Source: a virus. From it: a stretch of DNA of 34,648 nucleotides. A program made the position numbers and the translations under genes. Each line of letters begins with the position of its first letter. Within the stretch, counting starts at the first letter, position 1. Under the pieces are notes generated by a model that saw only the letters and a program-made list of their open reading frames with translations, did not search any database and was not told the DNA's origin. The stretch is taken from the IMG/VR virus record IMGVR_UViG_3300042539_000614, positions 1-34,648 of that record; one strand, written 5' to 3'. Shown here in pieces: positions 1 to 34,648 of the stretch.

Positions 1-186
1 GCGACCTTCGCTGCCGTGCATCATGTGTCCGCTGCGCACGCCACACCCGCAGCGTTGACCCTCGCCGTCCTGCCAAGCATCCGACAGTCTACGACGTGGC
101 CCGTGCTGCTGGATATGCCGCATTGGGCGACGATCGCCGTGGCCGTAGCCCTCGCACAGCTCAACCCTGCACTTGGCTTTGCAGTA
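1..186. repeat. Terminal direct repeat, left copy (matches 34463-34648)
   Basis: The first 186 bases match the last 186 with differences only at positions 123, 160, 171 and 186 (182 of 186 identical). This is what an unmerged circular or circularly permuted assembly leaves. All four differences lie in the last 64 bases and respect the reading frame: three are synonymous third-position changes and one is Leu/Val. Confidence 0.95.
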
Positions 187-633
187 TGCGTCTGGTCGGT
201 CTTCATCACCGAGCGGACGCCGATCTTCGCTGCCCTCGCAGCGGGGCCGTGGCTACCATGGGAGTACATCGTGGCGCCCGTGGCGCTCTCCGTCGTTTGG
301 GTGCTGGCCATGCGCATAGGCAAGGCCTACGTCGATGCCGACATCGACTGGCTACAACACCCCATCCGTACCGCACTGGCAAAGCACCGCACGTCTAAGA
401 TGTGGTCGTGGTGGCTGCCGTGGGGTGGTGCTGTCGTAGCCCTGCCGCACCTGAGCGCGTGGGCGCTCGCTATGGTGGCCGTGGCCTACGGGCAGTGCCT
501 CGTGGCGCAAGACCGTGCGCGGCTCTACACAACGGCGGCTCTGCCCGTCGTGCTATCACTGACATCAATCGACCCCGTGGCACTATACGCCGTGGCGGTC
601 ATCACGTATCTAACACCAATAACAGAGGTCTAA
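1..633 (+). CDS. Polytopic membrane protein, GT-C-like (3' part; starts at 34250 across the join)
   Basis: This is the downstream part of a 281-residue protein whose 5' end lies at 34250-34648. The reading frame is continuous when the terminal repeats are merged, and position 1 is the first base of codon 72. The part here has hydrophobic segments at about residues 112-140, 150-175, 205-230 and 245-275, separated by short basic or tryptophan-rich loops, so it is an inner-membrane protein with several spans. The loop holding the TERTP motif (Glu142) resembles the acidic-residue loops of GT-C glycosyltransferases, but similarity is weak. The next gene starts one base after the stop codon. GT-C function is inference; an unrelated membrane protein is the main alternative. 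Confidence 0.7.
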   Translation, partial: ATFAAVHHVSAAHATPAALTLAVLPSIRQSTTWPVLLDMPHWATIAVAVALAQLNPALGFAVCVWSVFITERTPIFAALAAGPWLPWEYIVAPVALSVVWVLAMRIGKAYVDADIDWLQHPIRTALAKHRTSKMWSWWLPWGGAVVALPHLSAWALAMVAVAYGQCLVAQDRARLYTTAALPVVLSLTSIDPVALYAVAVITYLTPITEV

Positions 634-634
634 G

Positions 635-1237
635 GTGGCAACCTACCTGACACATGCCGGCAAGAAACACAAGATCGACATTCCGTCGGTCACGCTGCGG
701 ACGCACAAGATGATGCTTGAGTGGTCATCAAAACTCGACGCCCACGTCAAGCAGGGCAACCAAGGCGTGCAGCTGGCAGCCGTCCGCAAGATGCTCGACA
801 CGTTCCCCGAAGCGCTGGACTTCATCGATGCCGTCGGCAACGTCAACAGCGACAAGCTGCAGGCGCGTATGGACTACGTCCGTGCTGATGAAGAGCGCAA
901 AGCAGCGGCAGCTGCCGAGGCTGGCAACGATTACACGATCATGTCGGACGACGACATCCGCGACGAAGCATACAGGTGGGTCACCGAGCGTTGGCAGCAG
1001 TGGATAAAGGACAACCCGGCGGCGGCGCTGATGCTCATGTTCCAAGCTACCGACTACCCCACCGACTACGACAGTCTGCTACTGGGCATAGAGTGCATCA
1101 AAGCGACTGTGCTTTGCGATGTTGCTACGAAGGCCCTCATCGACGGCGACCTTGAATCTGACTTCTGGCAGGACGTCGACGCTGCGGAGGTGGCGGACTA
1201 CTGCACACGATTTCTCACAGCGTACAAAGCACGTTGA
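635..1237 (+). CDS. Tail assembly chaperone (lambda gpG-like position)
   Basis: This 200-residue, charged, mainly helical soluble protein sits between the tail tube and tape-measure genes, where long-tailed phages encode the chaperone that coats the tape-measure protein during tail assembly. It starts with GTG directly after the upstream stop, with GAGGT just upstream. I see no catalytic motif; the assignment rests on position, size and the overlapping downstream frame. The next frame (+1) is open from 1092 to 1538 and covers the end of this gene, the arrangement used for frameshifted gpG/gpGT pairs. A good +1 slip site, TTT followed by C, lies at 1211-1214, and shifting there would give a protein of about 300 residues. 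Confidence 0.65.
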   Translation: MATYLTHAGKKHKIDIPSVTLRTHKMMLEWSSKLDAHVKQGNQGVQLAAVRKMLDTFPEALDFIDAVGNVNSDKLQARMDYVRADEERKAAAAAEAGNDYTIMSDDDIRDEAYRWVTERWQQWIKDNPAAALMLMFQATDYPTDYDSLLLGIECIKATVLCDVATKALIDGDLESDFWQDVDAAEVADYCTRFLTAYKAR

Positions 1238-1253
1238 GTTTGAACTATGGCAG

Positions 1254-1538
1254 ATGCAGCAATGGCCGATATGGGAGCGGGAACCTAAGGATGACTATGG
1301 GGACCCGCTACCGCCTACTCGGGATTACGTCGACACCGACGTTCCCGAAGAGTGGCACACGGAAGCGCAGGCAATGAGGTACTGCGAGCCGTGGCATACG
1401 ACCGTCGATGCCGTGCTCGACATGGAGTACCTGACGTTTACACGTCGTGCGCTCCTGTGGAAGGCCGTCAACATGCGCAGACCAACGAAGAACCAACACC
1501 ACAAGATCATGCGTAACACCTTCGGAGGCCGGTACTGA
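1254..1538 (+). CDS. Second tail-chaperone frame (gpT-like), probably made by frameshift
   Basis: This frame encodes about 95 residues from its first useful ATG, rich in Trp, Arg and acidic residues. It ends in TGATG, the tape-measure start. The frame is open upstream to 1092, well inside the previous gene, and lacks a good Shine-Dalgarno site before the ATG. That favours expression as a C-terminal extension of the upstream chaperone rather than as a free protein. In lambda and many siphoviruses the equivalent T segment is reached by -1 slippage; here the geometry needs +1 (or -2). The coding part is well supported by gene packing, while the expression mode is inferred. Confidence 0.55.
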
Positions 1539-4500
1539 TGGCGAACGAACTCAAATACAAAATCGTTGCGGACACGTCTGGCGTTATCAAGAGCGTCGCC
1601 GATGCGGAGAAGGCCATCGACAAAATCGGTGATAAGAAAATCAAGGTCACCGCAGACACGACGACAGCGTCGAAGCAGATAGGGTCGCTGGATAAGGACA
1701 TCAACGCACTAAGTGGCGACGTGAAAATCAACGTCGACACGGCAGGCGCCCAGGCTAGCATCGGCAACTTGACGAAGTCAGTCAAGAACCTAGACGATCA
1801 GGCTGGGTCTACATCGTCGACGTTCTCTGCATTTTCTGCGGGCGTCGGCGGTGCCATCGGTTCGATTGCGTCACAGGCCATCGGCAACATCGCAAGCGGG
1901 CTCAAGGAAGGCGCACTGCGTGCCGACGAGTTTGGCGATTCGTTGTCCGTAGCATTCCGTCAACAGGGAATCACGGACATCGAGGGTGAGATCACACGTG
2001 TGAACGACGCAGCCGTCAACCTTGCAAACTCGCTAGGTCTGCCGGCTGCACGCACCAAAGAACTCGCGGTCAATGTCGCATCATTGGGCGGTGTGACAGG
2101 CAAGCAGGCCGACGACCTGACGAAGCTATCTGCGGGGCTGGAGGTGTTCACCAACGGCGCCGTCAAAGGCGAGGCCGTAGTAAAGGCATTCAGCCGTGGC
2201 ATTGCAGACCCCGAAGGCGCTGCGGCTATCGAGAACCTGACAAAGAAATACCCACAGCTGGCCGACACGCTGAAGTCTAACCTTGACCCTGCGCAGAAGC
2301 TTGCACAGGCAAACCTCGTGCTCGGCAAGTCGTTTGCAGAGGTCGAAGCGCAGCAGGGCGACGTCGGTGGCACACTTAACAAGCTATCGAATCAGGTCAA
2401 CGAAGCATTTGAACAGATCGGTACGCAGCTACTTGAATCCCTCGCACCGCTGGCGCAGTCGATACAGCCGATTACGGAAGGCATCATCTCGGCATTCCAA
2501 GCGTTTGCCCCCGTGCTTACGACCATCGTCGATAACTTCGACATCATCGGGCCGGCAGTGCTTACGGCTGCGCTCGCGTTCGGTGCTTATCAAATCGCGA
2601 TCAACGCAGCAAGCACGGCAACGAAGATAGTAACGGCCGTAACCGCAGCATGGGAGGCAGTTCTTGCGGCTAACCCTGTCGGCCTTATCGCGGCTGCGGT
2701 CGTGGTAGCAACGGCGGCCATTATCGCACTTGCCGACGCCATGAACATCACGGCCGAGGAAGCCCTTGCAAATGCCGAAGCTGAGAAGAAGGTCATCGAG
2801 CAACAGATCGACGCTAACAAACAACGACAGGAATCTGTCAAGTCCACAAAGGGCTTGGTTGACGAATATGACAAACTGTCGAAGAAGTCAAAGCTGACCG
2901 TTGAAGAACAAAAGCGGATGCAGCAGATACAGGGCCAGCTTGACAAGCAGTACCCCAACCTGATCGATCAAACAAAGTCGTTCGCCGACAACCTCAACGG
3001 TGTCCAAGAGGTCGGAAAGCTGGCTACGGCTGAGCTGGAGAAGCTAGGCAAGGAAGGCGACGCCCTCGCAAAGCAGCTGGAGAAGGCCACACGAAGCATA
3101 GCATTCGCGGCACGAAACGCAGCCATTGAAGCGCTGACAGATACCACGGGATTGTCCGTAGGTATCTTCGGCAGCAGAGCGCTTGCCAAAGCTGGCGACG
3201 ATTTCAAAGCGGCGCTGTTCAAAGCCGTAACACCGGACGACGTACAAAAGGCGTTTGCACAGTTCAGCGAAACGATCAACACGCTGGGCGTCGATGCTGA
3301 AGATCTCAACGAAATATACACCAAGGCTGTTGCAGCTCGCGACAAGTCAATTTCGGCATTGGCACGGAGCACTGAAGACGCGGTCGATGCGCAGAACAAA
3401 CTTGCGCCACCGCCGCCTGTACTTGACCCCGACGCTGCGGAGAAAGCAAAGAAGGCAGCGGAACGGCTGGCCGAACTGAACAAGCAACTGGAGGCTACAC
3501 GAACAGAGCGCGCGAAGGCATCTGAGATAGGTTTCATCAAAGACTCTGCGTTGCTCGATGCCGAAGAGCAAGCGCTTGCAATTCTCAAGATCAATGAGAA
3601 GTACGACCGACTTGCAATCCAGCGCCAGCTGGACGCCATCAAGGGACAAGGCAAAGTCGAGGCCGCACAACGTGCCATCTTGAACGAGCAGCTGCTGACC
3701 CTTGACGACAAGTATGGACGCGAGCGTACAAAGCTTATCAACGATCAATTCCGCAAGGCCGAAGAAGCCAACGCCAAAGAGTTCGACGAATCATGGCAGG
3801 GCATCCTTGACAATCTCAAAAAAGAAGCCGAAGACTACGCGGCCCTGTTAAAGTTCGAGCAGGACACGGCAGCAGCGTCGTTCGCTAATTCTTTCGAGGG
3901 CATTTCTACGGATGCAGCTAAGGCGTTTAGTAGTGCCATCAATGAGCTCGACTTCAACGTAGCAACCGCAGGCGCTGCGGACTTCTTAAAGCAGCAAGAA
4001 GAAATCAACAAGGCCCTTGCGGACGGCACGCTATCGTATCAAGATGCCATCGCCAAGCTGGGCGAACTCTCGCAGGAGCAAACGGACGTCATCGGGCAGC
4101 TCGCCGCAAGTCTTGCGCCTGCATTCGATGAGGTCTCCAAGATTTACGAGAAGGCCGCAGCCGATGCAGCCGCAAGCGGAAAGAGCGTCGAAGATATTGG
4201 CGCCCGTCTGGCCGTTGCAACGGCATCGTCGTTTGCTGGGCTGGTCGCTTCTGGTGAGGACGCAAGCAAGGCAGTCGCAAAAGCAGCGCTTGCAAGTCTC
4301 GACGCTCTGGTGCCTATCCTCGTGGCGCAGATCACCGGCTTGTCGCTGGCGTCTGCCGAGTCGGTAGCGACCGCAGGCGCTGCTGGTATTGCCAAGGCGG
4401 CTATCCTTACGGCCATCTTGAAAGGCTTGGTCGCCGCAGCACGGGCATCGGCAGGGTTTGCCGAAGGTGGTTACACGGGCACGGGCGGCAAGTACGAGCC

Positions 4501-4825
4501 GGCAGGCGTCGTACACCGTGGCGAGTTCGTCATGCCGCAGACGATCACCCGCAAGAACCGCGGCCTGCTCGAACACATCTACGCCGACAAGCCATTGGCA
4601 GAGTTCCCCGGCCTGGCTGCGATGTTGGCAACGAACGGCGTATCTTCGCCCGTTGGGCTGCAGCGCGAGAATGACGCCCTGCGATCGGAGCTGCGGGCCA
4701 TCCGTACGCAGCTGCAGACGATGGAGACGCTGCACAAATCGGCACATGAGCTTACCGTCCATGCCGATCACGGCACGACGTTGAAGGCCATGCGCAAAGC
4801 ACAAATCCGCAACCTACGAGGCTAA
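1538..4825 (+). CDS. Tail tape measure protein
   Basis: At 1095 residues this is the longest gene here. It has the usual tape-measure build: Ala-rich helical and coiled-coil stretches, two hydrophobic segments at about residues 340-355 and 380-400, a long charged coiled coil after about 400, and a C-terminal Gly-rich motif with [11 protein letters not shown] near residue 990 that recurs in many tape-measure proteins. The protein fixes tail length and may help DNA cross the host envelope. Using roughly 0.15 nm per residue for the family, the tail would be near 160 nm. The ATG overlaps the preceding stop, so translation is probably coupled to the chaperones. I see no lysozyme or peptidase motif. 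Confidence 0.95.
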
Positions 4826-4827
4826 CG

Positions 4828-5322
4828 ATGGCAGCCAAAACAGACTGGACACTTACCCTCTACGGCGCTACGGTCGACCCTGCGACGACGGCCTACACCA
4901 TGGCGACCGCTTCGACGGTCAACGCCTACACGGGCGCGGCGTCTTACACGGTCTACATCACGCAACCGCAAGCGCAGTGGGCACTAGAGAACGAACTGCT
5001 CACGGACATCAGCGGGTGGCAGGTCGGCAACGTCACGAGGCGCCGACGATTCAGCGTGCAATGCTACCCATTCGACTACGGCACGACGGTGTCCGGCGCT
5101 CCCGCCGCTGGTGTGCAGGACTTGGACAACGTCGATGCACTCGCGGATCTGATCGCAGGAAAGAAGTACCTGTGGGCTGTCATCACGGGCGGCGTTCGTT
5201 CGTGGCCGTCGACGGCAGGACAGGTGCACCCTGTCAACGTCACGGGATTCTCCGAGACCGTCAACGCATCGGCAGGGACGCGAGGCCTGACCATTGACAT
5301 TGAGCTGCGAGGTCGCCAGTAA
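4828..5322 (+). CDS. Tail protein of unknown function (tail-tip region)
   Basis: This 164-residue protein looks beta-rich, with alternating polar and hydrophobic residues and many Thr, Val and Tyr, no membrane segment and no known catalytic motif. It starts two bases after the tape-measure stop, and its own stop overlaps the next start (TAATG). In siphoviruses this slot usually holds a distal tail protein, so a tail-tip structural role is likely, but I do not recognise the family. Confidence 0.7.
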   Translation: MAAKTDWTLTLYGATVDPATTAYTMATASTVNAYTGAASYTVYITQPQAQWALENELLTDISGWQVGNVTRRRRFSVQCYPFDYGTTVSGAPAAGVQDLDNVDALADLIAGKKYLWAVITGGVRSWPSTAGQVHPVNVTGFSETVNASAGTRGLTIDIELRGRQ

Positions 5323-16920: not shown

Positions 16921-18072
16921 ATGCGTAGTAAATTAGACAAAAGAACCATTGAATACGTCGGCACGTCGTCACTAACGCCGTACGCTCGCAACAGCAGGAC
17001 ACACCTGCCGGAACAGGTTAAGCAGATCGCTGCGTCAATTCGGGAGTTTGGATTTACCAACCCCGTACTGATCGACGACGAAGGCACGATCATTGCAGGG
17101 CATGGCCGAGTGCTGGCCGCGCAACATCTGCAACTCGCCGAAGTCCCGTGCATACGGCTTGGATACCTTACTGAGACACAGCGGAGGGCGTACGTTATCG
17201 CAGATAACAAGCTGGCGTTGAATGCTGGATGGGATGAGGAACTTCTAAAGCTGGAGTTAGAAGACCTGCACTTAGAGAACTTTGACCTTGGCAAGATTGG
17301 ATTCGATGCGAAGGAACTATCCGAAGCAATGGGCCTTGATGACAAGGAAATCGTCGAGGATGAAGTGCCGGAACCTCCTGCCGATCCGATTACAAAGCCG
17401 GGCGATATGTGGATTCTTGGTGACCATCGGTTGCTATGTGGCGATTCGACCAAAGAAACGAATTTCGCAGCGCAGTGCTCGACACTGTTCTTCGATCCGC
17501 CATGGGATGCCGGTGTTAAAATGCTACCCCGCGAGTGCATGCTCGCATTCTGTGACGGACAAAGGATATCCGACGTAGTGCGCGATTATGGTGCACCGAC
17601 TTGGGCCTTTGCTTGGGACTGCATCACAAGCTGGTATACACCGGCTCGCCCGCTACGGCGCATGAAGATTTGCCTTTGGTACGGAGATATAAACCGATAC
17701 GATCAAGACGGCTCACACTATGGCGATGCGGGCGAATCCCGCACGGTCACAAATTCGAGGGGCTCGTACAAATTCACCCCCGACCCCAGAGGCAAGCACC
17801 TTTCAGACGTATATACACAAGCAATCACGGCGTTACATGCAGAGTCCGAGCATTCGCATTCCAAGCCTTTAGACTGGGTCCGAATGCTGATTGCGAACTG
17901 CACACATGGCGACATTTACGACCCGTTCCTCGGCTCCGGCACGACGCTCATCGCCGCCGAACAACTGGGCCGAAAGTGCTACGGCATGGAGATCTCGCCG
18001 GCTTACTGCGACGTGATCGTCAAGCGGTGGGAAACATTCACGGGACGGAAGGCAGAGCTTGTCAATGGCTAA
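16921..18072 (+). CDS. ParB-domain DNA methyltransferase
   Basis: This 383-residue fusion has an N-terminal ParB/Srx-like domain (about residues 10-105, with IIAGHGRVLAAQ and VIADNKLALNAGW) and a C-terminal amino-methyltransferase domain. Motif IV is DPPW at 192-195, and the AdoMet-binding motif DPFLGSGTT lies at 334-342 near the end, the motif order of the beta class. It should methylate adenine N6 or cytosine N4. No restriction enzyme gene is nearby, so protection of phage DNA from host restriction or marking of DNA for replication or packaging is likely. It overlaps the terminase small subunit gene by eight bases. Confidence 0.9.
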   Translation: MRSKLDKRTIEYVGTSSLTPYARNSRTHLPEQVKQIAASIREFGFTNPVLIDDEGTIIAGHGRVLAAQHLQLAEVPCIRLGYLTETQRRAYVIADNKLALNAGWDEELLKLELEDLHLENFDLGKIGFDAKELSEAMGLDDKEIVEDEVPEPPADPITKPGDMWILGDHRLLCGDSTKETNFAAQCSTLFFDPPWDAGVKMLPRECMLAFCDGQRISDVVRDYGAPTWAFAWDCITSWYTPARPLRRMKICLWYGDINRYDQDGSHYGDAGESRTVTNSRGSYKFTPDPRGKHLSDVYTQAITALHAESEHSHSKPLDWVRMLIANCTHGDIYDPFLGSGTTLIAAEQLGRKCYGMEISPAYCDVIVKRWETFTGRKAELVNG

Positions 18073-18364
18073 CATCAAAAAAGACATCAACCCCGAGCAG
18101 GTGCATAAGCTCGCAGCAATCGGCTGCACCGACAAGGAGATCGGCGAAATAGTCGGATGCTCCCACGATACGCTGACACGACGTTTCCGTGACGATCTGG
18201 ACGCAGGCCGTGCCAATGGCCGGGCATCGCTGAGACGCAAGCAATGGGAGATAGCACTCGGCGGCAATGTCACCATGCTCATCTGGTTAGGCAAGCAGTA
18301 TCTTGAGCAGTCCGACAAGATCGAAAGCAAGACGATCGAAGACATTATCGTCAGCCTCGAATGA
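18065..18364 (+). CDS. Terminase small subunit-like HTH protein
   Basis: The 99-residue product has a helix-turn-helix at about residues 14-40 (LAAIGCTDKEIGEIVG, then SHDTLTRRF), followed by a helix with SLRRKQWEIA and MLIWLGKQYL, a combination typical of small terminase subunits that bind the packaging site and recruit the large subunit. I chose the ATG over an in-frame TTG two codons upstream. It overlaps the methyltransferase by eight bases and the large terminase by four (ATGA). Confidence 0.85.
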   Translation: MANIKKDINPEQVHKLAAIGCTDKEIGEIVGCSHDTLTRRFRDDLDAGRANGRASLRRKQWEIALGGNVTMLIWLGKQYLEQSDKIESKTIEDIIVSLE

Positions 18365-19527
18365 AGATGACGTATAGGATGCACGAAGGGCAGAATCATA
18401 TTCTTGCCAATCGCCGCAGATACAACGTCGTAGCATGCGGCCGACGCTTCGGCAAGTCACGTCTTGCGTATGCCGTTGCGATGGAGTGCATCGCCGGCAA
18501 GCTGCCGGTCAGTTACTGGACACCCACGGCCACGGATTACGAGAAACGTTGGGACGAGTTCGTCAAGACGCACCGTGGTGCGATCATCAACCTGCGCACA
18601 AAAGACGGTATCATCGTGTTCCGCAACGGAGCTGAAATGCACTGGTTTGGCTTGCACCGATACGACGGAGGCCGTGGCAACAAGTACGCGCGGGTCATTA
18701 TCGACGAAGCTGCACACTCGGACAACCTTGCAGACGCATGGGCGGAAGTGATACGGCCAACCCTTACCGACTACAAGGGCGACGCCTGGTTGCTGTCGAC
18801 ACCTAACTGGCGGCAGAAAGACCAAGCATTCAAGCGCTTCTGCAATACAGTCCGAGACGATTACGCAGTGTTCCGCATGCCGTCGACGGCAAACCCGTAC
18901 ATTGACCCTGCTGAAATTGAGGATGCACGCAACGACCCCAACATGCCAAGCGTTATATTCCGCCAAGAGTATTTGGCCGAAGACGTGGAGCTGCAGGGCG
19001 CCCTTGTCAACCGCGAGGACATCCGCTACGGCCACCCTGCCGAGGGCGAACGCATCGAGTACAACATGGGCGTCGACCTTGCCATCAGCACGAAAGAGGG
19101 CGCCGACTATACCGCCATCGCCGTCGTTGGCAAGGTAGAAAACCGTTACTACATCGTCGACGTGCTGCGTCGGCAAATGGGTTTCAACGACACGAAGACG
19201 GCGATCAAGAAGATGGCTGCGAAGTGGCAGCCGACGTTCGTCAACATCGAGGCGGTACAGTACCAGGCGGCAATCGTCGAAGACCTGAAGATGGAGATGC
19301 GCGAGTATTACGTCAACGCGATCCATCCCGACCGTGACAAGCGCAGCCGCTTTCTGCCGACGCTAGGCAAGTACGAGCACGGCCTCGTCTACCACAGCGC
19401 GACCCTGCCGCCAGAGTTCGAGGGTGAGCTACTGCAGTTCCCCGAGGGCGACCACGACGACATGGTTGATGCGGTGGTGTATGCAATGAAGGGCTTTGAT
19501 TCAGGAGTGAGGGTATACAATGTTTGA
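18361..19527 (+). CDS. terL: Terminase large subunit
   Basis: The 388-residue packaging motor has an N-terminal ATPase with Walker A GRRFGKS (27-33) and Walker B VIIDEA (112-117), and a C-terminal RNase H-like nuclease with Asp239 in GVDLAIS and the acidic cluster HDDMVDAV (Asp366, Asp367, Asp370). It translocates DNA into the prohead and cuts it. It is shorter than many relatives because the N-terminal extension before Walker A is only about 25 residues. The start overlaps the small subunit stop, and the next methyltransferase starts eight bases before its end. Confidence 0.95.
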   Translation: MKMTYRMHEGQNHILANRRRYNVVACGRRFGKSRLAYAVAMECIAGKLPVSYWTPTATDYEKRWDEFVKTHRGAIINLRTKDGIIVFRNGAEMHWFGLHRYDGGRGNKYARVIIDEAAHSDNLADAWAEVIRPTLTDYKGDAWLLSTPNWRQKDQAFKRFCNTVRDDYAVFRMPSTANPYIDPAEIEDARNDPNMPSVIFRQEYLAEDVELQGALVNREDIRYGHPAEGERIEYNMGVDLAISTKEGADYTAIAVVGKVENRYYIVDVLRRQMGFNDTKTAIKKMAAKWQPTFVNIEAVQYQAAIVEDLKMEMREYYVNAIHPDRDKRSRFLPTLGKYEHGLVYHSATLPPEFEGELLQFPEGDHDDMVDAVVYAMKGFDSGVRVYNV

Positions 19528-21058
19528 ACTGAAGCACGGCGACTGTCTCGATGTCCTCCGCACGATGGCCGATAACAGTATCGACGCGATCGTCACAGAC
19601 CCGCCGTATGGCCTGTCCTTCATGGGCAAGCGATGGGACTACGACGTTCCCGACGAGGCCGTGTGGCGCGAGTGCCTGCGGGTGCTGAAGCCCGGCGGTC
19701 ATCTGCTGGCGTTTGCAGGCACGCGGACACAGCACCGAATGGCGGTGCGGATTGAAGACGCGGGCTTCGAGATCCGCGACATGATCGCGTGGGTCTACGG
19801 GTCGGGATTCCCGAAATCGCTGGACGTGAGCAAGGCGATTGACAGGCAGCGGCACGATACCGAACAGGTGTATCAAGTCACCGCGTGGATACGCTCCGCA
19901 CGGGATGCCGCTGGCAAGAGCAACCGAGATATCGACGATGCGTTCGGCTTTGCGGGCATGGCCGGGCACTGGACAAGTACCAAGAGCCAGCCCGCCGTCC
20001 CAACGCTCGACCAGATCCCGAAGCTGCTGGACGTGTTAGGTCTAAGTCTCGACGACGTCCCCGACGAGATCCGCGAATTGATCTGGACATTGAACGGCAA
20101 CAAAGGCCAACCGGGTGCGGCGTGGTTTGAGCGCGAGGTGGTGGGGCAAAAGGAAATGCTCGACACAACAAAAGCGCGTGCTGGATTTTCTGGGCCTGCA
20201 CACTCGCCAGATTATGATGGCAGCAAACGCATCGTCAACATCACCGCCCCCGCCACTGAAGCCGCCAAGCAATGGCACGGCTGGGGCACGGCATTAAAGC
20301 CCGCCCTTGAGCCTATCACGGTGGCACGCAAGCCGATCGTCGGCACGGTGGCGAACAACGTCCTGACGTGGGGGACGGGTGGGATCAATGTGGATGGCTG
20401 CAGGGTGGGGACGGATGGGGAAACCATTACGGCAACCCGTAACATTGCACTCGGGTCGTCGTCGTCGGGCGTTTATGGCGCGGCAAACGTGCCGGGTGTC
20501 TATCAGCAGAAGGAAGGGGGCCGCTTCCCCGCCAACCTTATCCACGACGGGAGTGATGAGGTGGTGGGGCTGTTTCCCAATGTTAACACTGGCAAAGGCG
20601 GCGGCGCTGGGATGGGGTTTTCCGGTGGCAGCACAGGCCCAGACCCTAATCGCGGCTTTGGCGACTCCGGCTCCGCAGCCCGTTTCTTCTACTGCGCGAA
20701 GGCTTCCAAACGAGACAGAGACGAGGGGTGCGAGGGGATGGACAAAATCAGAACAGGCGCAATGACAGCAACTGCGGATGGCTCAATGCTTACCTCGAGT
20801 GGCAACGAACGCACCACGGCTCGCGCCAACCACCACCCCACCGTCAAGCCTACCGACCTCATGCGATATCTCTGCAGGCTGGTGACCCCACCGAACGGCA
20901 CCGTCTTAGATCCGTTCATGGGCAGCGGCTCGACGGGCAAGGCCGCCATCTTAGAAGGCTTCCGATTCATCGGCATCGAACGCGAGGCCGAATATCTGGA
21001 GATAGCACGGGCACGCATCGATCACGTCACGAAGGAACCCAACTTATGGCAAAGCTGA
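19520..21058 (+). CDS. DNA methyltransferase with inserted HTH-like segment
   Basis: The 512-residue product has DPPY (27-30) in TDPPYGLSFMGKRWD near the N-terminus and DPFMGSGSTG (464-473) near the C-terminus, again the beta-class order for adenine-N6 or cytosine-N4 methylation. Residues 125-200 form an insertion resembling a helix-turn-helix (ARDAAGKSNRDIDDAFG, then a PTLDQIPKLLDVLG helix), seen in other phage methyltransferases. Residues 290-420 are Gly- and Ser-rich and probably hold the target recognition region. It is the second methyltransferase beside the terminase genes and overlaps its neighbours on both sides. Confidence 0.92.
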   Translation: MFELKHGDCLDVLRTMADNSIDAIVTDPPYGLSFMGKRWDYDVPDEAVWRECLRVLKPGGHLLAFAGTRTQHRMAVRIEDAGFEIRDMIAWVYGSGFPKSLDVSKAIDRQRHDTEQVYQVTAWIRSARDAAGKSNRDIDDAFGFAGMAGHWTSTKSQPAVPTLDQIPKLLDVLGLSLDDVPDEIRELIWTLNGNKGQPGAAWFEREVVGQKEMLDTTKARAGFSGPAHSPDYDGSKRIVNITAPATEAAKQWHGWGTALKPALEPITVARKPIVGTVANNVLTWGTGGINVDGCRVGTDGETITATRNIALGSSSSGVYGAANVPGVYQQKEGGRFPANLIHDGSDEVVGLFPNVNTGKGGGAGMGFSGGSTGPDPNRGFGDSGSAARFFYCAKASKRDRDEGCEGMDKIRTGAMTATADGSMLTSSGNERTTARANHHPTVKPTDLMRYLCRLVTPPNGTVLDPFMGSGSTGKAAILEGFRFIGIEREAEYLEIARARIDHVTKEPNLWQS

Positions 21059-28745: not shown

Positions 28746-29831
28746 ATGGCAGTTAAGAAACCATTAGTCCTAGCGTCTGGTCAGGTGCAAGAATTGCAAA
28801 GCGCCGACAATATTAACGTCGCCGCCAGTGATATTACGTCCGGCACGATCGCAACCGCGCGGCTCGGTAGTGGTACAGCTAATAACGCAACCTTTCTCCG
28901 AGGGGACAACACCTGGGCAACACCTGCTGGTGGTGGTGGAGGTGGTGGAACGCCTGTAATAACAGTATTCAACTCATCGGGTACCTACACAAATCCACAG
29001 ACGGGGTACCTGTGGGTCTACCTTTTGGCGGCGGGCGGAGGCGGGGGAAGCGGACGGCGAGGGGCGGCTAGTACAAATCGGTTTGGTGGTGGTTCCGGTC
29101 AGCCTGGGAATAGTTTGCAGGCATGGTACGTTGCATCTATGCTGCCTGCATCTATACCCATATGGGTGGGTGCGGGTGGAGTTGGAGGTGTTGCTCAGAC
29201 GGTCGATAACGCGGACGGGAATACAGGCGGAGCTGGCGGCATAACAATCTTTGGTGGCAATGGGACTAGTAATGACCCGAACTTAATTTTAATCACCGGA
29301 TTCGGAACGCAGGGTGGCATTCGCGGGCAAACAATTGCAGCTGGTGGAGCTTCAGCAAGCACTAACGTACTCATACACCTGTCTGCATCAGGTGGCAGTT
29401 CAAGGCCGCCGAGCTCACCCAACCCCAATGTGCCTGGAACATCCAGTATATCGAACTCACCTGGTACGTGCGGCGGCTTGGGCGGAGGTATCGACAACAT
29501 AAATAACCGATACAACGGAGGTCTCAGCGACTCGCAGGTTGGCCGCATTGGGTCACCACAGTACATCGACCGTACGGCTGGAGGCGTTGGAGCTGGGGCG
29601 TCGGGCGCCAATGGAACTACAATTAATGGTGTCCGCGACTTCTATTCACTGTCCACGGGTGGCGGCGGTGGAGCGTCTGGGGATACAGCCGGCACTATTG
29701 CCGGAGGCAAGGGTGGCAATGCAGGCGTCGGATCGTCAGGTGGTGGCGGCGGTGCCTCCACGAACGGTGCAAACTCAGGTGCAGGCGGCAACGGCGGCAA
29801 CGGATTACTCGTCATTATTCATTGGCAATAA
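28746..29831 (+). CDS. Glycine-rich fibre adhesin
   Basis: The 361-residue product starts with a common phage-fibre segment (SGTIATARLGSGTANN, then FLRGDNTWATPAGG). The rest is dominated by Gly-rich blocks interleaved with variable Asn/Ser/Thr loops, such as AAGGGGGSGRRGAAS, and ends in a hydrophobic strand. Glycine-rich domains of this kind form stacked polyglycine helices in phage adhesins, and the loops bind the receptor. Codons here use GGT/GGA and more A/T than the neighbours, suggesting recent exchange of this host-range gene. The following small gene may be its chaperone. Confidence 0.8.
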   Translation: MAVKKPLVLASGQVQELQSADNINVAASDITSGTIATARLGSGTANNATFLRGDNTWATPAGGGGGGGTPVITVFNSSGTYTNPQTGYLWVYLLAAGGGGGSGRRGAASTNRFGGGSGQPGNSLQAWYVASMLPASIPIWVGAGGVGGVAQTVDNADGNTGGAGGITIFGGNGTSNDPNLILITGFGTQGGIRGQTIAAGGASASTNVLIHLSASGGSSRPPSSPNPNVPGTSSISNSPGTCGGLGGGIDNINNRYNGGLSDSQVGRIGSPQYIDRTAGGVGAGASGANGTTINGVRDFYSLSTGGGGGASGDTAGTIAGGKGGNAGVGSSGGGGGASTNGANSGAGGNGGNGLLVIIHWQ

Positions 29832-29832
29832 T

Positions 29833-30051
29833 ATGCTAGAACGCTACGCAATCGTGGAAAACAACGTGGTCACCAACATCATTTTATGGGATTCAGATCA
29901 CGGCGAACTCCAAACGACAGCACTTGCAATGAAAAACAACTCGACATCAATCGGCGACTGGTGGGAGGAATCCGAGCAGCGTTTCTATCGTCCCCTGCCG
30001 AGGAACGACGAAATGGAATATCCCGAAGAGGTTTCAAGTGATCTCCCCTGA
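29833..30051 (+). CDS. Small tail-fibre chaperone-like protein
   Basis: The 72-residue product begins YAIVENNVVTNIILWD and then has a Trp pair and an acidic end. The opening resembles the V-x-N-x-I-x-W domain found in many small proteins encoded just after phage fibres, some attached to fibre assembly proteins. It starts one base after the adhesin stop and shares the adhesin's lower G+C. It probably assists folding of, or caps, the adhesin. The assignment is from pattern and position. Confidence 0.55.
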   Translation: MLERYAIVENNVVTNIILWDSDHGELQTTALAMKNNSTSIGDWWEESEQRFYRPLPRNDEMEYPEEVSSDLP

Positions 30052-30127
30052 AGAAGGTCTCATCGGCGGCGTGGCCTTGTGCATCATGTGTCTTCTGCCG
30101 CTACTACTCCCGAAGGATAAGCGATGA
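30038..30127 (+). CDS. 29-residue single-span membrane peptide
   Basis: This tiny frame starts at GTG inside the end of the previous gene and stops in an ATGA overlap with the next. Residues 7-25 are strongly hydrophobic (GLIGGVALCIMCLLPLLL), preceded by acidic and followed by basic residues, a single-span topology. It opens the lysis block and could be a holin regulator. The call is supported by the overlap and composition only. Confidence 0.45.
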   Translation: MISPEEGLIGGVALCIMCLLPLLLPKDKR

Positions 30128-30387
30128 ACGAGCAGTTCCCGAAATGGGTCTTAGGCGTGGCCTCGGCTGCGGTCATCAGCATCGGCGCTGGCCTGCTGAC
30201 GACGATGGTCATGCTGCGTGAGGACATGGCCGTTGTCAAGTCACATATCGCCGAGCTCAAGCAGACGAATACGAAGGTCGACGCTGTCGAGCGCATCGTG
30301 ATCGGCCACGAGTACCGCATCACGGCGTTGGAGGCCGACGGCACGGTGTACCGCACGGACACGATACGAGCACGCCGTGGACGGTGA
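30124..30387 (+). CDS. XhlA-like lysis-associated membrane protein
   Basis: The 87-residue product has one membrane span at about residues 8-29, then an amphipathic, coiled-coil-like segment (HIAELKQTNTKVDAVERI and after) and a basic end. This is the shape of XhlA-type proteins but with the span at the N-terminus, a layout common in small lysis-cassette proteins and some spanins. It precedes the holin-like and endolysin genes. A role in lysis timing or membrane disruption is likely. Confidence 0.55.
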   Translation: MNEQFPKWVLGVASAAVISIGAGLLTTMVMLREDMAVVKSHIAELKQTNTKVDAVERIVIGHEYRITALEADGTVYRTDTIRARRGR

Positions 30388-30757
30388 ACCGATCATCACC
30401 AACGTGAAACAGATGCCGTATGAAATACCACGGCCGCGTAATCATGTCGAGGCCAAAGCATACGAGCCGCTGCAAGAGACTCCGTACTTTCGTGAGCCGA
30501 CGCTTGCGGAATCTCTCGCAGCTGCTTGGCAGACAACGAAGGTCATCGCGGTGATCACACCGCACATCGTAAAACTCATCATAGGACTCGCCATGAAATC
30601 GTGGAAGACAACCCTCGGCGCTATCATCGCCGGACTGGCTGGCATTCTGAACGCTCTCGGTATCGTCGTCATCCCTGCCGACGTGCAGGTCGGCGTCCTG
30701 ACGGTCGCCATGTTCATCATCGGCCTGTTCGCAGCCGACGACAAGACGGCTGAGTGA
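30377..30757 (+). CDS. Holin-like protein, possible dual start
   Basis: The 126-residue product (GTG start, 11-base overlap) has a soluble N-terminal part of about 60 residues and two membrane spans at about residues 76-96 and 103-120, with an acidic AADDKTAE end. A second in-frame ATG at 30593 has a TAGGA site six bases upstream and would give a 54-residue protein made only of the two-span part, matching small phage holins. Long and short forms from one gene would recall the holin/antiholin pairs of dual-start systems. It lies directly before the endolysin gene. Confidence 0.6.
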   Translation: MDGEPIITNVKQMPYEIPRPRNHVEAKAYEPLQETPYFREPTLAESLAAAWQTTKVIAVITPHIVKLIIGLAMKSWKTTLGAIIAGLAGILNALGIVVIPADVQVGVLTVAMFIIGLFAADDKTAE

Positions 30758-30782
30758 CATCTAACGACATGGAGGTATCGGG

Positions 30783-31367
30783 ATGGCTGCAAAGAATTCT
30801 GCCGGCAAAGCTGGCAAAGCTGGTACGGTGGTCGATACGGTACGCGAGACTGTTCACGTACCTGAACGACCGACGCTTGCGGTAGGTGAAGCGGTCGCAC
30901 AATGCGATACGTTCAGCTGGATGGACATCGCCAAGGCCGAACTCGGGCAGCGCGAAGTCAAGGGTGCGAAGCACAACCCGCGTATTATCGAGTATCACAA
31001 GACGACGACGTTGAAGGGCACCACGGACGAGATCCCGTGGTGCTCATCGTTTGTTAACTGGGTCATGAAGCAGGCAGGCTATCCGGGCACGAACTCGGCA
31101 GCGGCGCGGTCATGGCTTCAGTACGGGCAGCGGCTGGCGACACCCGTGCCGGGCTGTATCGTCGTCCTGTCACGTGACGGCGGCGGGCACGTTGGCTTCT
31201 ACATTGGGCAGGACTCCTACGGCATCAAGATTCTCGGCGGCAACCAAGGCGACGCGGTGACGGTGGCACAGTACGCACACGGGCGGTGCCTCGCGCTGGT
31301 CGTGCCTCGCAACATGAGAGCCGAAGACAACGAACTTTTCTATCGTGAACTCGCGAGGTTTGCATGA
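30783..31367 (+). CDS. Endolysin, peptidoglycan hydrolase of the TIGR02594/CHAP-like type
   Basis: The 194-residue product has a basic, low-complexity N-terminal 40 residues and then a cysteine peptidase-like hydrolase: AELGQREVKGAKHNPRI, PWCSSFVNWV with Cys87, GGGHVGFY with His136, and LGGNQGD with Asn154. Cys, His and Asn are the expected catalytic triad. It should cut the host peptidoglycan after the holin opens the membrane; no signal peptide is seen. A GGAGGT site precedes the ATG. Placement between the fibre and head-tail joining genes is unusual for siphoviruses. Confidence 0.88.
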   Translation: MAAKNSAGKAGKAGTVVDTVRETVHVPERPTLAVGEAVAQCDTFSWMDIAKAELGQREVKGAKHNPRIIEYHKTTTLKGTTDEIPWCSSFVNWVMKQAGYPGTNSAAARSWLQYGQRLATPVPGCIVVLSRDGGGHVGFYIGQDSYGIKILGGNQGDAVTVAQYAHGRCLALVVPRNMRAEDNELFYRELARFA

Positions 31368-31945: not shown

Positions 31946-32409
31946 AGACGATAGCCGACGATATTGTCGCCATCGTGAAAGACGAGCTGCAGCGCATCCC
32001 GGATGAGCTGTTCGTATACGTTAACGAATACTTCGGCGATGACATCGGCTCGGCAGTGTTCCGAGGCGGTGGCGCCGTCCGTGGGCGCAAGTTCCCTCGC
32101 AACACGAGGACCGGCCCCGGCACGTTGCGCATCGTAAGTGGCGACCTGCTGCGTGCTACCGAGCGCGGCGGCAAGGGCAACATCTACAATCTGACAATCC
32201 AAGGCGGTATGGTCAGCATCGACTACGGCGTCGATACGGGCATCATCCCGTACGCTGCCATCCACGAATACGGCGGCAACGCTGGCCGTGGACTGAAGAC
32301 CCGCATCCCTGCACGGCCATACTTGCGTCCAGCATTCGACGCATTCGAGCGCGAGGAGTGGCCGCAGGTTATAAGGCGCATTGACAACCGCATTCGGAGT
32401 CTGTTCTAA
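31942..32409 (+). CDS. Head closure or tail completion protein (HK97 gp10/Mu gpG-like)
   Basis: The product carries the pattern IPYAAIHEYGG followed by RIPARPYLRPAF, typical of HK97 gp10 and Mu gpG-type head-tail completion proteins. The coding frame extends in frame upstream of the first GTG (31975) to a CTG at 31942, which overlaps the preceding stop as CTGA. Since neighbours join by ATGA or GTGA, I take the CTG as the start (155 residues). A GTG start would give 144 residues and a 29-base gap. Confidence 0.75.
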   Translation: MKTIADDIVAIVKDELQRIPDELFVYVNEYFGDDIGSAVFRGGGAVRGRKFPRNTRTGPGTLRIVSGDLLRATERGGKGNIYNLTIQGGMVSIDYGVDTGIIPYAAIHEYGGNAGRGLKTRIPARPYLRPAFDAFEREEWPQVIRRIDNRIRSLF

Positions 32410-32867
32410 TGGCCGCCAACAGAAACGCATACATCATCGGGACGATACGCGAGGCCCTCGCTGAGGTGCCGATGTTCACGGTAACAAAGGTCTTCCGTGA
32501 CAGCTTTACCGATCAGCGCGCCGTCGTGTATCCTTTCATCAGTTCGAGCGGTGTCACCGACTACATGGAAGACTTCTCGACATGGTCGGGAAAGACGATG
32601 GTTACGGTGTACGTCAACGCTAAGGTCGAACAGGACCCGAGCGGGACGACGGGCAAAGCGACGGCGGTGTGGGACGACATCACCGACCGCATCGAGAACG
32701 CCATCTGGGAGATCAACACTCCCAGGTGGGAGACGCACGGCAACGGTCAAGAAACGACACTACGTAACATCGTCGTTGTGGCACAGGGCGGATTCCTGGA
32801 CGACGGCAAGCAACAGATCAAAGTCGAATATTCCATTGAGGTAACGTGGGACTTCACGAGAGACTGA
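32409..32867 (+). CDS. Tail terminator-like protein
   Basis: The 152-residue product has the alpha/beta pattern of tail-terminator or tail-completion proteins: an N-terminal helix with IIGTIREALAEVPM, central strands with VVYPFISSSG and VTVYVNAKV, and a final strand. Its place between the gp10-like gene and the tail tube matches lambda gpU-like proteins, which cap the tail. The start overlaps the upstream stop (TAATG). Sequence similarity by eye is weak, so this rests on gene order. Confidence 0.6.
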   Translation: MAANRNAYIIGTIREALAEVPMFTVTKVFRDSFTDQRAVVYPFISSSGVTDYMEDFSTWSGKTMVTVYVNAKVEQDPSGTTGKATAVWDDITDRIENAIWEINTPRWETHGNGQETTLRNIVVVAQGGFLDDGKQQIKVEYSIEVTWDFTRD

Positions 32868-33697
32868 CAGGCGCTGCAAAGCGTCTGACATCACAGGCCA
32901 TACCCAACGTCGCCGATGCACCCTCCGAGGCCACCACGGCCACGGATGACGGCAATTCGGGCAACGTGACGCAGTGGCATGACCTGACGTTCTACATCAT
33001 CACGCGCAAGGAAGACTTTAAGCTCCTGCCCGAGATGATCGCCAGCCTGCCGACGGGCGTAAATGTCAACATCGTTGAGACCATCCACGACCCAAAGGCC
33101 GACATCGAGGCTGCTGCGACAAGTACAAACGGCGCGATTCAGGACGGCCGCGACGTCAGGACGTGGGAGTGGCGATACCCGCGGTGGGACTTTGCATCGG
33201 CACGCAACGCGGCGCTAGCAACGTGCGATACGACGTGGGCGATGTGGATGGACTCCGACGATCGCATTCCTGCGATCTACCACAACGACATCATCGAGCT
33301 TGTCAAGGCCGACAACCCGGGCGTCGGTGGGTACATGATGGGGTGCGCTGGGTATCAGCCGCCATATGAAGCCGGTGCGCGTGGATCATACTACGCCGTA
33401 CCGCACTGCCGCCTGCATCGCGTCGACACGCGCATCACGTGGCGTGGATATGCACACGAACAGATCGACACGGCAATTCAAGACAGCGGGTACGCCATCG
33501 CTGAGTCTGCCGTCGTCGTCATGCACGTAGGCTATGTAACAGACACCAAAGCCCTCGCCGCCAAGATGGGCCGTAACGTCATGCTGCTATGCCGTCAGAT
33601 CTCTGAGGACAAAGAGTACATCCCCGCCTACTACCTCAATGCCCTCAAGGATAACCTCACTACTTATCTCCACATGAAGGAAAACATCAATGGCTAA
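32846..33697 (+). CDS. GT2-family glycosyltransferase (GT-A fold)
   Basis: The 283-residue product has the GT-A core of family 2. DFASARNAAL (115-124) is followed by MWMDSDDR with the metal- and nucleotide-sugar-binding Asp136-Ser-Asp138-Asp139, and later RLHRVDTRITWRG and AHEQ (203-206), the usual acceptor-site end. No membrane span is present, so it should act in the cytoplasm on a soluble acceptor with a nucleotide sugar. The GTG start overlaps the tail terminator by 22 bases, and the stop overlaps the tail-tube ATG by eight, so it is probably co-translated with the tube protein. Glycosylation of tube or capsid is the likely role. Confidence 0.85.
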   Translation: MGLHERLTGAAKRLTSQAIPNVADAPSEATTATDDGNSGNVTQWHDLTFYIITRKEDFKLLPEMIASLPTGVNVNIVETIHDPKADIEAAATSTNGAIQDGRDVRTWEWRYPRWDFASARNAALATCDTTWAMWMDSDDRIPAIYHNDIIELVKADNPGVGGYMMGCAGYQPPYEAGARGSYYAVPHCRLHRVDTRITWRGYAHEQIDTAIQDSGYAIAESAVVVMHVGYVTDTKALAAKMGRNVMLLCRQISEDKEYIPAYYLNALKDNLTTYLHMKENING

Positions 33698-34253
33698 GAT
33701 AGTCGGCGGTGGTAGGCTTGTAAAGTTCTACACCGTAACCAACACAAGCGGCGGATGGGCCATCGGCGCAACGGCCGTGTTCGAGTGCAACGAACAGATC
33801 AACACGGACGTCGCATTCGACGACCAAGGCGTCGCCACCATCACGATCGAGCAGATTCAAGACGACGCCACATTCAACACGTTCATCGAGACCTACGGCC
33901 GCCCGACGGCTGGCAGCTCGGGAACGCCTGAAGACGTGACGTACGAGAACGGAGACCAGCTCCTCGGTGCTGCCAACACGGGAACGCCCCTGCTGGCCAT
34001 CATCAAGGGCGGCACGCAGACCGGTGGATCTACCAAGATCTTCGCATCGGTTGTCACCGTTGGCCGTTCGTCTGGCTCGTGGTCGCAGTCGGGCAACACG
34101 TACAACCGCCCGACGCTGACGGCCGTGTCGCAGCCCATCGAAGCGACGGTTGCAACGGTGGCATCGACGTACTTCTCGTCGTTCGCCGTCACGCCTGCCC
34201 AGCTGCTGCTGAACAACGCCGCACGCAAGTACGGAGCCGTGACCTACCAGTGA
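33690..34253 (+). CDS. Major tail (tube) protein
   Basis: The 187-residue product is Thr-, Gly- and Ala-rich with a beta-strand pattern, as in major tail proteins. It sits between tail-completion genes and the tail chaperones, where the tube gene is almost always found. It begins inside the end of the glycosyltransferase gene and ends in a GTGA overlap with the membrane protein gene. Many surface-type Ser/Thr/Asn loops (GGTQTGGSTK, RSSGSWSQSGNTYN) could carry sugars. Confidence 0.8.
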   Translation: MAKIVGGGRLVKFYTVTNTSGGWAIGATAVFECNEQINTDVAFDDQGVATITIEQIQDDATFNTFIETYGRPTAGSSGTPEDVTYENGDQLLGAANTGTPLLAIIKGGTQTGGSTKIFASVVTVGRSSGSWSQSGNTYNRPTLTAVSQPIEATVATVASTYFSSFAVTPAQLLLNNAARKYGAVTYQ

Positions 34254-34648
34254 TCGTCACGCTCACCATCGCAATCGCGATTTATGCGCTCAACGTCTGG
34301 CGTGGTGGTTCTGCCATCACGCCCGACGGGGCGTTTTACCTGGCATCGGGCAGGGGCGAAGCAACGCCCATGCCGTATGCCCTTCGTTACCTGCCGCAAG
34401 CTATTCGGAGTTTGGCAGGATGGCGAGCGATGCACGTAGGGTCTTACCTCGCCCTGATAGCAGCGACCTTCGCTGCCGTGCATCATGTGTCCGCTGCGCA
34501 CGCCACACCCGCAGCGTTGACCCTCGCCGTCCTGCCAAGCATCCGACAGTCTACGACGTGGCCCGTGCTGCTGGATATGCCGCACTGGGCGACGATCGCC
34601 GTGGCCGTAGCCCTCGCACAGGTCAACCCTGCGCTTGGCTTTGCAGTG
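34250..34648 (+). CDS. Polytopic membrane protein, GT-C-like (5' part; continues at 1-633)
   Basis: This frame starts at a GTG in a GTGA overlap with the tail-tube stop and runs off the end of the window; with the terminal repeat merged it continues to 633, giving 281 residues. The N-terminus has a membrane segment (residues 1-16), then a loop with TPDGAFYL (Asp26) followed by Arg-rich residues, then further spans. A membrane helix followed by an acidic residue and aromatic loop is the opening of GT-C transferases, which take sugar from a lipid carrier outside the membrane. At 281 residues it is short for that superfamily, so the assignment is tentative. Confidence 0.68.
   Translation, partial: MIVTLTIAIAIYALNVWRGGSAITPDGAFYLASGRGEATPMPYALRYLPQAIRSLAGWRAMHVGSYLALIAATFAAVHHVSAAHATPAALTLAVLPSIRQSTTWPVLLDMPHWATIAVAVALAQVNPALGFAV
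34463..34648. repeat. Terminal direct repeat, right copy (matches 1-186)
   Basis: Matches 1-186 except at four positions; see the left copy. Merging the two gives a circle of about 34,462 bases. Confidence 0.95.

Follow-up and report, generated by a model that had tools for sequence, protein, structure and literature searches.

Introduction

Most of what is known of glycosylated phage tails comes from mycobacteriophages; among the described relatives of the glycosyltransferase examined here, SunS is an S-glycosyltransferase that attaches its sugar to a peptide cysteine, and the substrate of GmaR is flagellin. GmaR is described as a bifunctional glycosyltransferase/antirepressor and O-GlcNAc transferase (PMC3150276, by way of its reference 38), and the mycobacteriophages Che8, Corndog and Myrna are cited as glycosylating capsid and tail tube with enzymes of their own (Freeman et al. 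2023, as cited in PMC12619734 and PMC12363180). GT-CA enzymes possess a seven-helix module and two juxtamembrane helices in loop 1, the first of which bears an essential Asp at its tip (PMC12041299); this residue is D55 in ArnT (5ezm; PMC7801869) and D62 in AftB of M. chubuense (PMC12041299).

Here we analyze an IMG/VR virus record of 34,648 bases (hereafter, the window) in which genes for a soluble GT2 glycosyltransferase, a likely tail-tube protein and a GT-C-like membrane protein follow one another within the tail operon. This system is probably a variant of phage protein glycosylation with an orphan, GT-C-like membrane partner. A peptide/protein-type glycosyltransferase fixed beside a likely tube gene across distant lineages names a testable target, and its membrane neighbor represents an unannotated, possibly minimal GT-C family of less than 290 aa, an opening to learn the lower size limit of an active GT-C enzyme and the reason for a phage to translate such an enzyme alongside its tail.

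Results

Upstream of the gene row (Table 1) lie genes for a head-tail adaptor (PHROG 442, 1.9e-16) and a tail-completion/Neck1 protein (PHROG 222, 3e-8), and downstream of it a chaperone-type ORF pair is followed by the tape measure (PHROG, 1.2e-12). On the strength of this order, with head-tail and tail-completion genes on one side and chaperones plus tape measure on the other, the 187-aa product is likely the tail tube; the name given to it in an earlier note on this DNA thus agrees with gene position, but no Pfam, PHROG or NCBIfam family and no PDB profile or sequence recognizes the protein. No RNA families or tRNAs were found in the window.

Table 1. Coordinates of the gene row and its neighbors in the window
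Feature	Coordinates	Strand	Basis
Gene preceding the cassette, in the tail-terminator position	32409..32867	+	Gene order alone; unmatched by any profile
Soluble GT2 (GT-A fold) glycosyltransferase of the SunS/GmaR type, 283 aa, GTG start	32846..33697	+	PDB profile search, fold search, hhalign
WMDSDDRI codons, the DxD-type nucleotide-sugar/metal motif of the GT2	33245..33268	+	W134, D136, D138, D139 and R140 invariant in 7 homologues
Likely major tail-tube protein, 187 aa	33690..34253	+	Gene position; homologues of 49-55% identity in the matching place; no profile match
Membrane protein, N-terminal part, GTG start in the tube stop	34250..34648	+	Joined reading frame
First-loop motif codons TPDGAFYLASGRGEATPMPYALR with the invariant Asp26	34319..34387	+	Alignment of membrane-protein homologues
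Membrane protein, remainder; GT-C-like orphan family	1..633	+	Joined frame; complete homologues in L002, L006, L014, L015 and L017; model alignment to PIG-U, ArnT and AftB
Chaperone-type ORF pair of tail assembly (635-1237 and 1119-1538), downstream of the membrane gene	635..1538	+	Location ahead of the tape measure; +1 overlap conserved
Tape-measure protein, anchoring the tail module	1538..4825	+	PHROG tape-measure matches to 1.2e-12

The genes overlap at each junction of the row in the window. The GT2 start lies 22 nt inside the preceding gene, the GT2 ends eight bases inside the tube gene (33690-33697), exactly as the earlier note had read it, and the tube stop shares 4 nt (GTGA) with the GTG of the membrane gene at 34250. 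From there the membrane-protein frame runs on without interruption across the contig join (34250 to 34648, then to 633; 281 aa in all). Since the same gene is read through without a break in a relative of 97% identity on a contig of 35.6 kb, the join is natural and the reading of one protein spanning it holds. Bases 1-186 and 34463-34648 form an end repeat, and the mismatches at 4 of its 186 positions suggest a strain mixture in the assembly.

Conservation of the row in related phages

Scans of viral contigs recovered the row at 97% identity in L002 and L003 and, in the same order, in the diverged uncultured phages L006, L014, L015/L016 and L017 (L014 and L015 being close to each other), with L007 carrying the GT2 and tube genes and no membrane gene; the comparison of gene order that had been proposed earlier therefore yields a recurrent arrangement. 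Identities across the cassette proteins of the diverged relatives are 28-55%, namely 51-55% for the tube and 28-48% for the GT2 relative to the window, and 29-37% for the membrane protein with L002 as the reference. A profile search did not find the membrane gene anywhere in the 31,982 bases of L007, a result to be read with the proviso that such records may be incomplete. Directly after the tube stop of L007, in the place of the missing gene, lies a strong RNA hairpin (4856-4925; dG -22.8 kcal/mol, z -5.5).

The overlaps at both junctions of the tube gene are present in the window and, for the tube/membrane-gene junction, in every relative having the membrane gene; the GT/tube junction, however, varies, with a 1-nt overlap in L006 and gaps of 2-3 nt in L007, L014, L015 and L017. 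What does not vary is the position of the GT2 gene, which directly precedes the tube in all contigs found. The dN/dS values of close pairs (GT2, 0.13 and 0.20; tube, 0.13 and 0.15; membrane protein, 0.25 and 0.07) fall within 0.07-0.25 and show purifying selection on the cassette genes. Because the cassette is common to distantly related viruses, it is probably a real working unit; a chance overlap or assembly artefact was ruled out by its recurrence in separate contigs and by the reading through the join in L003/L004.

A viral scan with the 7-member tube alignment added no lineages, and tblastn against a collection of phage isolates (50,697 records) gave no match to the GT2, tube or membrane protein of the window, nor to the membrane protein of L006. 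The L006 GT2 matched, in that same collection, only SPbeta-group SunS (yolJ) and Listeria fragments whose records carry no annotation and which we take to be GmaR-like. Scans of GTDB genome contigs with the membrane-protein and GT2 alignments returned no confirmed relative and no prophage copy.

The GT2 resembles enzymes that glycosylate proteins and peptides

That the first gene encodes a clear GT2 was borne out by its motifs, ARN (119-121), DSDD (136-139; DTDD in some) and HEQ (204-206), all of which are invariant or nearly so in seven homologues. All seven members match PF00535 (best 4e-6), although its gathering score of 23.3 divides them, the window copy lying below it (19.5) and that of L007 above (27.3). 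A PDB search with the 7-member profile placed SunS (2.6e-13), GmaR (5.2e-11) and ThuS (1e-9) ahead of everything else, the top matches being protein or peptide glycosyltransferases only, and hhalign paired the family with SunS at E 1.2e-10 over 200 columns, as against 0.53 for ArnC and 0.38 for another bacterial GT2. The predicted model, whose mean pLDDT of 66.5 is exceeded in the catalytic core, tells a similar story: Foldseek was led by SunS and ThuS and the fold search confirmed a GT-A fold, while ThuS headed the VIA alignment (Z 15.9 over 159 residues at 3.4 A), other GT-A enzymes coming close behind.

The likeness to SunS and ThuS (PDB 7msp, 7msk) extends to the GT-A domain motifs DF..ARN, W..(W/Y)(M/I)D(S/A)D, R..R, G..HE, H.GY and K..RN, which align over those same columns. 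The phage enzymes are nonetheless shorter (254-283 versus 422 aa), are encoded in a tail operon, and have no small glycocin precursor gene that we could see between or adjacent to the cassette genes. TIGR04195, the SunS family, was the best partial NCBIfam match for all four members tested (up to 2.2e-11), yet the best member scored 43.3 bits against an equivalog cut-off of 350; the GT2 thus belongs to the SunS superfamily but not to the TIGR04195 family. GmaR, the Listeria flagellin O-GlcNAc transferase/antirepressor (PDB 22ao), matches most of the GT2 length with its glycosyltransferase domain (E 5e-11), and the parallel may extend to cytoplasmic transfer onto the protein of a tubular structure, such a substrate being putative for the phage enzyme, which lacks the TPR and antirepressor regions of GmaR. 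Judged by these profiles, the GT2 is of the peptide/protein-glycosyltransferase type and not a Gtr/ArnC-type lipid-sugar enzyme. Its sequence contains no hydrophobic or membrane span, and this together with its relatives SunS, GmaR and ThuS upholds the earlier view of a soluble enzyme suited to protein glycosylation in the cytoplasm.

The acceptor is a separate matter. The constant position of the GT2 gene immediately upstream of the tube and its kinship to peptide/protein glycosyltransferases argue for the neighboring product, yet gene location need not mark the target, and known phage virion glycosylation, in the publications as cited in PMC12619734 and PMC12363180, reaches capsids as well; a target other than the tube, be it capsid, fiber, a host protein or phage DNA, is therefore an appreciable if less favored possibility. 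Kinship to SunS would itself count against the tube, SunS being an S-glycosyltransferase and the tube homologues having no conserved cysteine. Ten of their columns are always Ser or Thr, and because no cysteine is shared we read an O-linkage if the tube is the target. As a functional analogy the mycobacteriophage systems seem apt, in that a phage-encoded glycosyltransferase is thought, in the sources as cited above, to modify proteins of the virion, the tail tube among them; the present case differs in that the GT2 gene abuts the likely tube gene, and the two are likened by description and not by sequence.

A single lipid-linked pathway is not favored

Since GT2 and GT-C genes are common neighbors in bacteria, as in the GT39 loci examined, and both genes of the cassette flank one and the same gene, they might be supposed to act in a single pathway like those of ArnC/ArnT or Gtr, whereby the GT2 would load polyprenyl phosphate and the GT-C-like protein would transfer the sugar to a host surface glycan (serotype conversion). 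Gtr cassettes (GtrA, GtrB, GtrC) do share with ours a GT2 and a polytopic membrane protein, but differ from it by their GtrA, membrane-anchored GT2 and integrase, and by the location of our cassette in a tail operon. Against the proposal, the GT2 has no membrane spans, has no ArnC match and matches SunS strongly. The GtrA/DPMS-TM flippase domain (PF04138) was found in none of the eight records, the control genomes being positive, and neither an integrase nor a GtrB-type membrane-anchored polyprenyl-phosphate GT2 was found in them, each of the eight holding one GT2 only. Finally, L007 carries the GT2 but not the membrane gene, thereby indicating that the two proteins need not work as one pathway. 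The Gtr-like serotype-conversion pair that the earlier note had raised is not supported, given the absence of GtrA and integrase from the eight records, the type of the GT2 and the case of L007, and we regard a shared pathway of either kind, ArnC/ArnT or Gtr, as improbable.

The membrane protein, a possible small GT-C enzyme

Profile searching, which identified the GT2, gave nothing above noise for its membrane neighbor: the family libraries (Pfam, PHROG, NCBIfam) and the PDB sequences contained no match, and DUF7146, DUF4212, ZT_dimer and other weak Pfam matches were dismissed. BFVD gave one strong match, A0A6J5M3A1 (34% identity), a homologue with no assigned function from an uncultured Caudovirales phage. 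Conservation of the membrane protein is highest in its first loop, where, after TM1, five homologues have TPDGxxYLAxGRGxxxPxPYxxR in common (TPDGAFYL in the window), with T24, P25, D26, G27, Y30, L31, A32, G34, R35, G36, P40, P42, Y43 and R46 invariant. This motif, combined with 13 charged or His residues invariant across five homologues of 29-37% identity, makes the protein enzyme-like.

Its predicted model is poor (pLDDT 45), and Foldseek of this model against the PDB found no significant match. In the VIA list, the only long alignments at the top were those to PIG-U (Z 9.1, 233 residues), which to our knowledge has a GT-C fold without a known transferase activity, ArnT (Z 6.5, 232) and AftB (Z 5.5, 220), Z values that, lying under about 13, may for helical bundles reflect a common arrangement only. 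In the low-confidence model, loop 1 holds two short helices (27-32 and 43-51), and Asp26 stands at the tip of the first, where all GT-CA enzymes have their Asp (PMC12041299, PMC7801869). Residue 1 of the membrane protein is aligned to the start of the ranges at ArnT 31 and AftB 39, which would bring Asp26 near ArnT 55 and AftB 62 as estimated from the ranges rather than residue by residue. By sequence, hhalign of the family against seven GT39/ArnT-like proteins from plasmid records scored 19.3, a value matched by 9 of 60 block-shuffled controls and hence not significant; the best local alignment to ArnT/GT39, likewise within the range of the shuffled controls, sets Asp26 on the PDE..Y motif of ArnT.

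The invariant first loop and the low-confidence alignment thus sustain the GT-C-like description of the earlier note. With ArnT, AftB and the GT-C-fold subunit PIG-U the phage protein would share TM1, a loop 1 with two short helices, an Asp at the tip of the first, and 220-233 aligned residues; it differs from them in its length of only 281 aa, in having no periplasmic domain and in the lack of significant sequence similarity. On the model we consider a GT-C fold rather probable, and the protein may be a second sugar-transferring enzyme. The absence of a family match, the low-confidence model, the lack of significant similarity to GT39 and the accessory nature of a gene missing from L007 would also suit a non-transferase, such as a superinfection-exclusion or other envelope-acting protein whose first loop is simply GT-C-like; the many invariant charged residues and the long structural alignments to GT-C proteins only make this rather unlikely.

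Discussion

Bringing these observations together, we propose that the cassette is a glycosylation unit inserted into the tail operon and expressed along with the virion genes, its GT2 acting on a virion protein and its membrane protein being a GT-C-type envelope enzyme; we hold this reading as a whole to be evenly poised between right and wrong. The GT2 would take a host-made nucleotide-activated sugar and attach it, in the cytoplasm and at Ser/Thr, to a freshly made virion protein, the likeliest acceptor being the tube protein encoded next door. The membrane protein, a compact GT-C-type enzyme or a derivative of one residing in the inner membrane, would use a host polyprenyl-phosphate sugar with Asp26 as the catalytic residue and act on the outer side, probably on a host envelope glycan; the resulting change might, for instance, deny binding to released or competing particles. 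What the two proteins would have in common is expression, not a pathway.

A more specific version, which we put forward as doubtful, is a two-sided cassette whereby a SunS/GmaR-type enzyme coats the tube with sugar in the cytoplasm and a minimal GT-C enzyme made by translational coupling modifies the host envelope, both being dosed by translation of the tail operon. We know of no described phage with such a two-sided sugar strategy.

Other features of the window

Several observations concern other parts of the genome. The chaperone ORFs overlap in the +1 frame (635-1538) in the window and at the matching place in L006, L007, L014, L015 and L017, and a TTT-Y site (TTTCTC, TTTTGC, TTTTGT or TTTCGC) lies shortly before the stop of the first chaperone ORF in every relative; by sequence, this is a candidate conserved +1 programmed frameshift, at which tRNA-Phe could slip +1. 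Positions 28746-31367, which separate the capsid gene from the head-tail adaptor, encode a Gly-rich fiber-like protein, small holin-like membrane proteins and a lysin-type protein (TIGR02594, 4e-44); fiber and lysis genes are unusual at such a location. Two different DNA-methyltransferase-like genes (16921-18072 and 19520-21058) flank the terminase genes, the first of them having a ParB-like N-terminus on reading its sequence. For the terminase large subunit (18361-19527), isolate matches are longest with haloarchaeal tailed viruses (28.5% over 97%), and the best of the short ones is to a Manatee Spring phage (42%).
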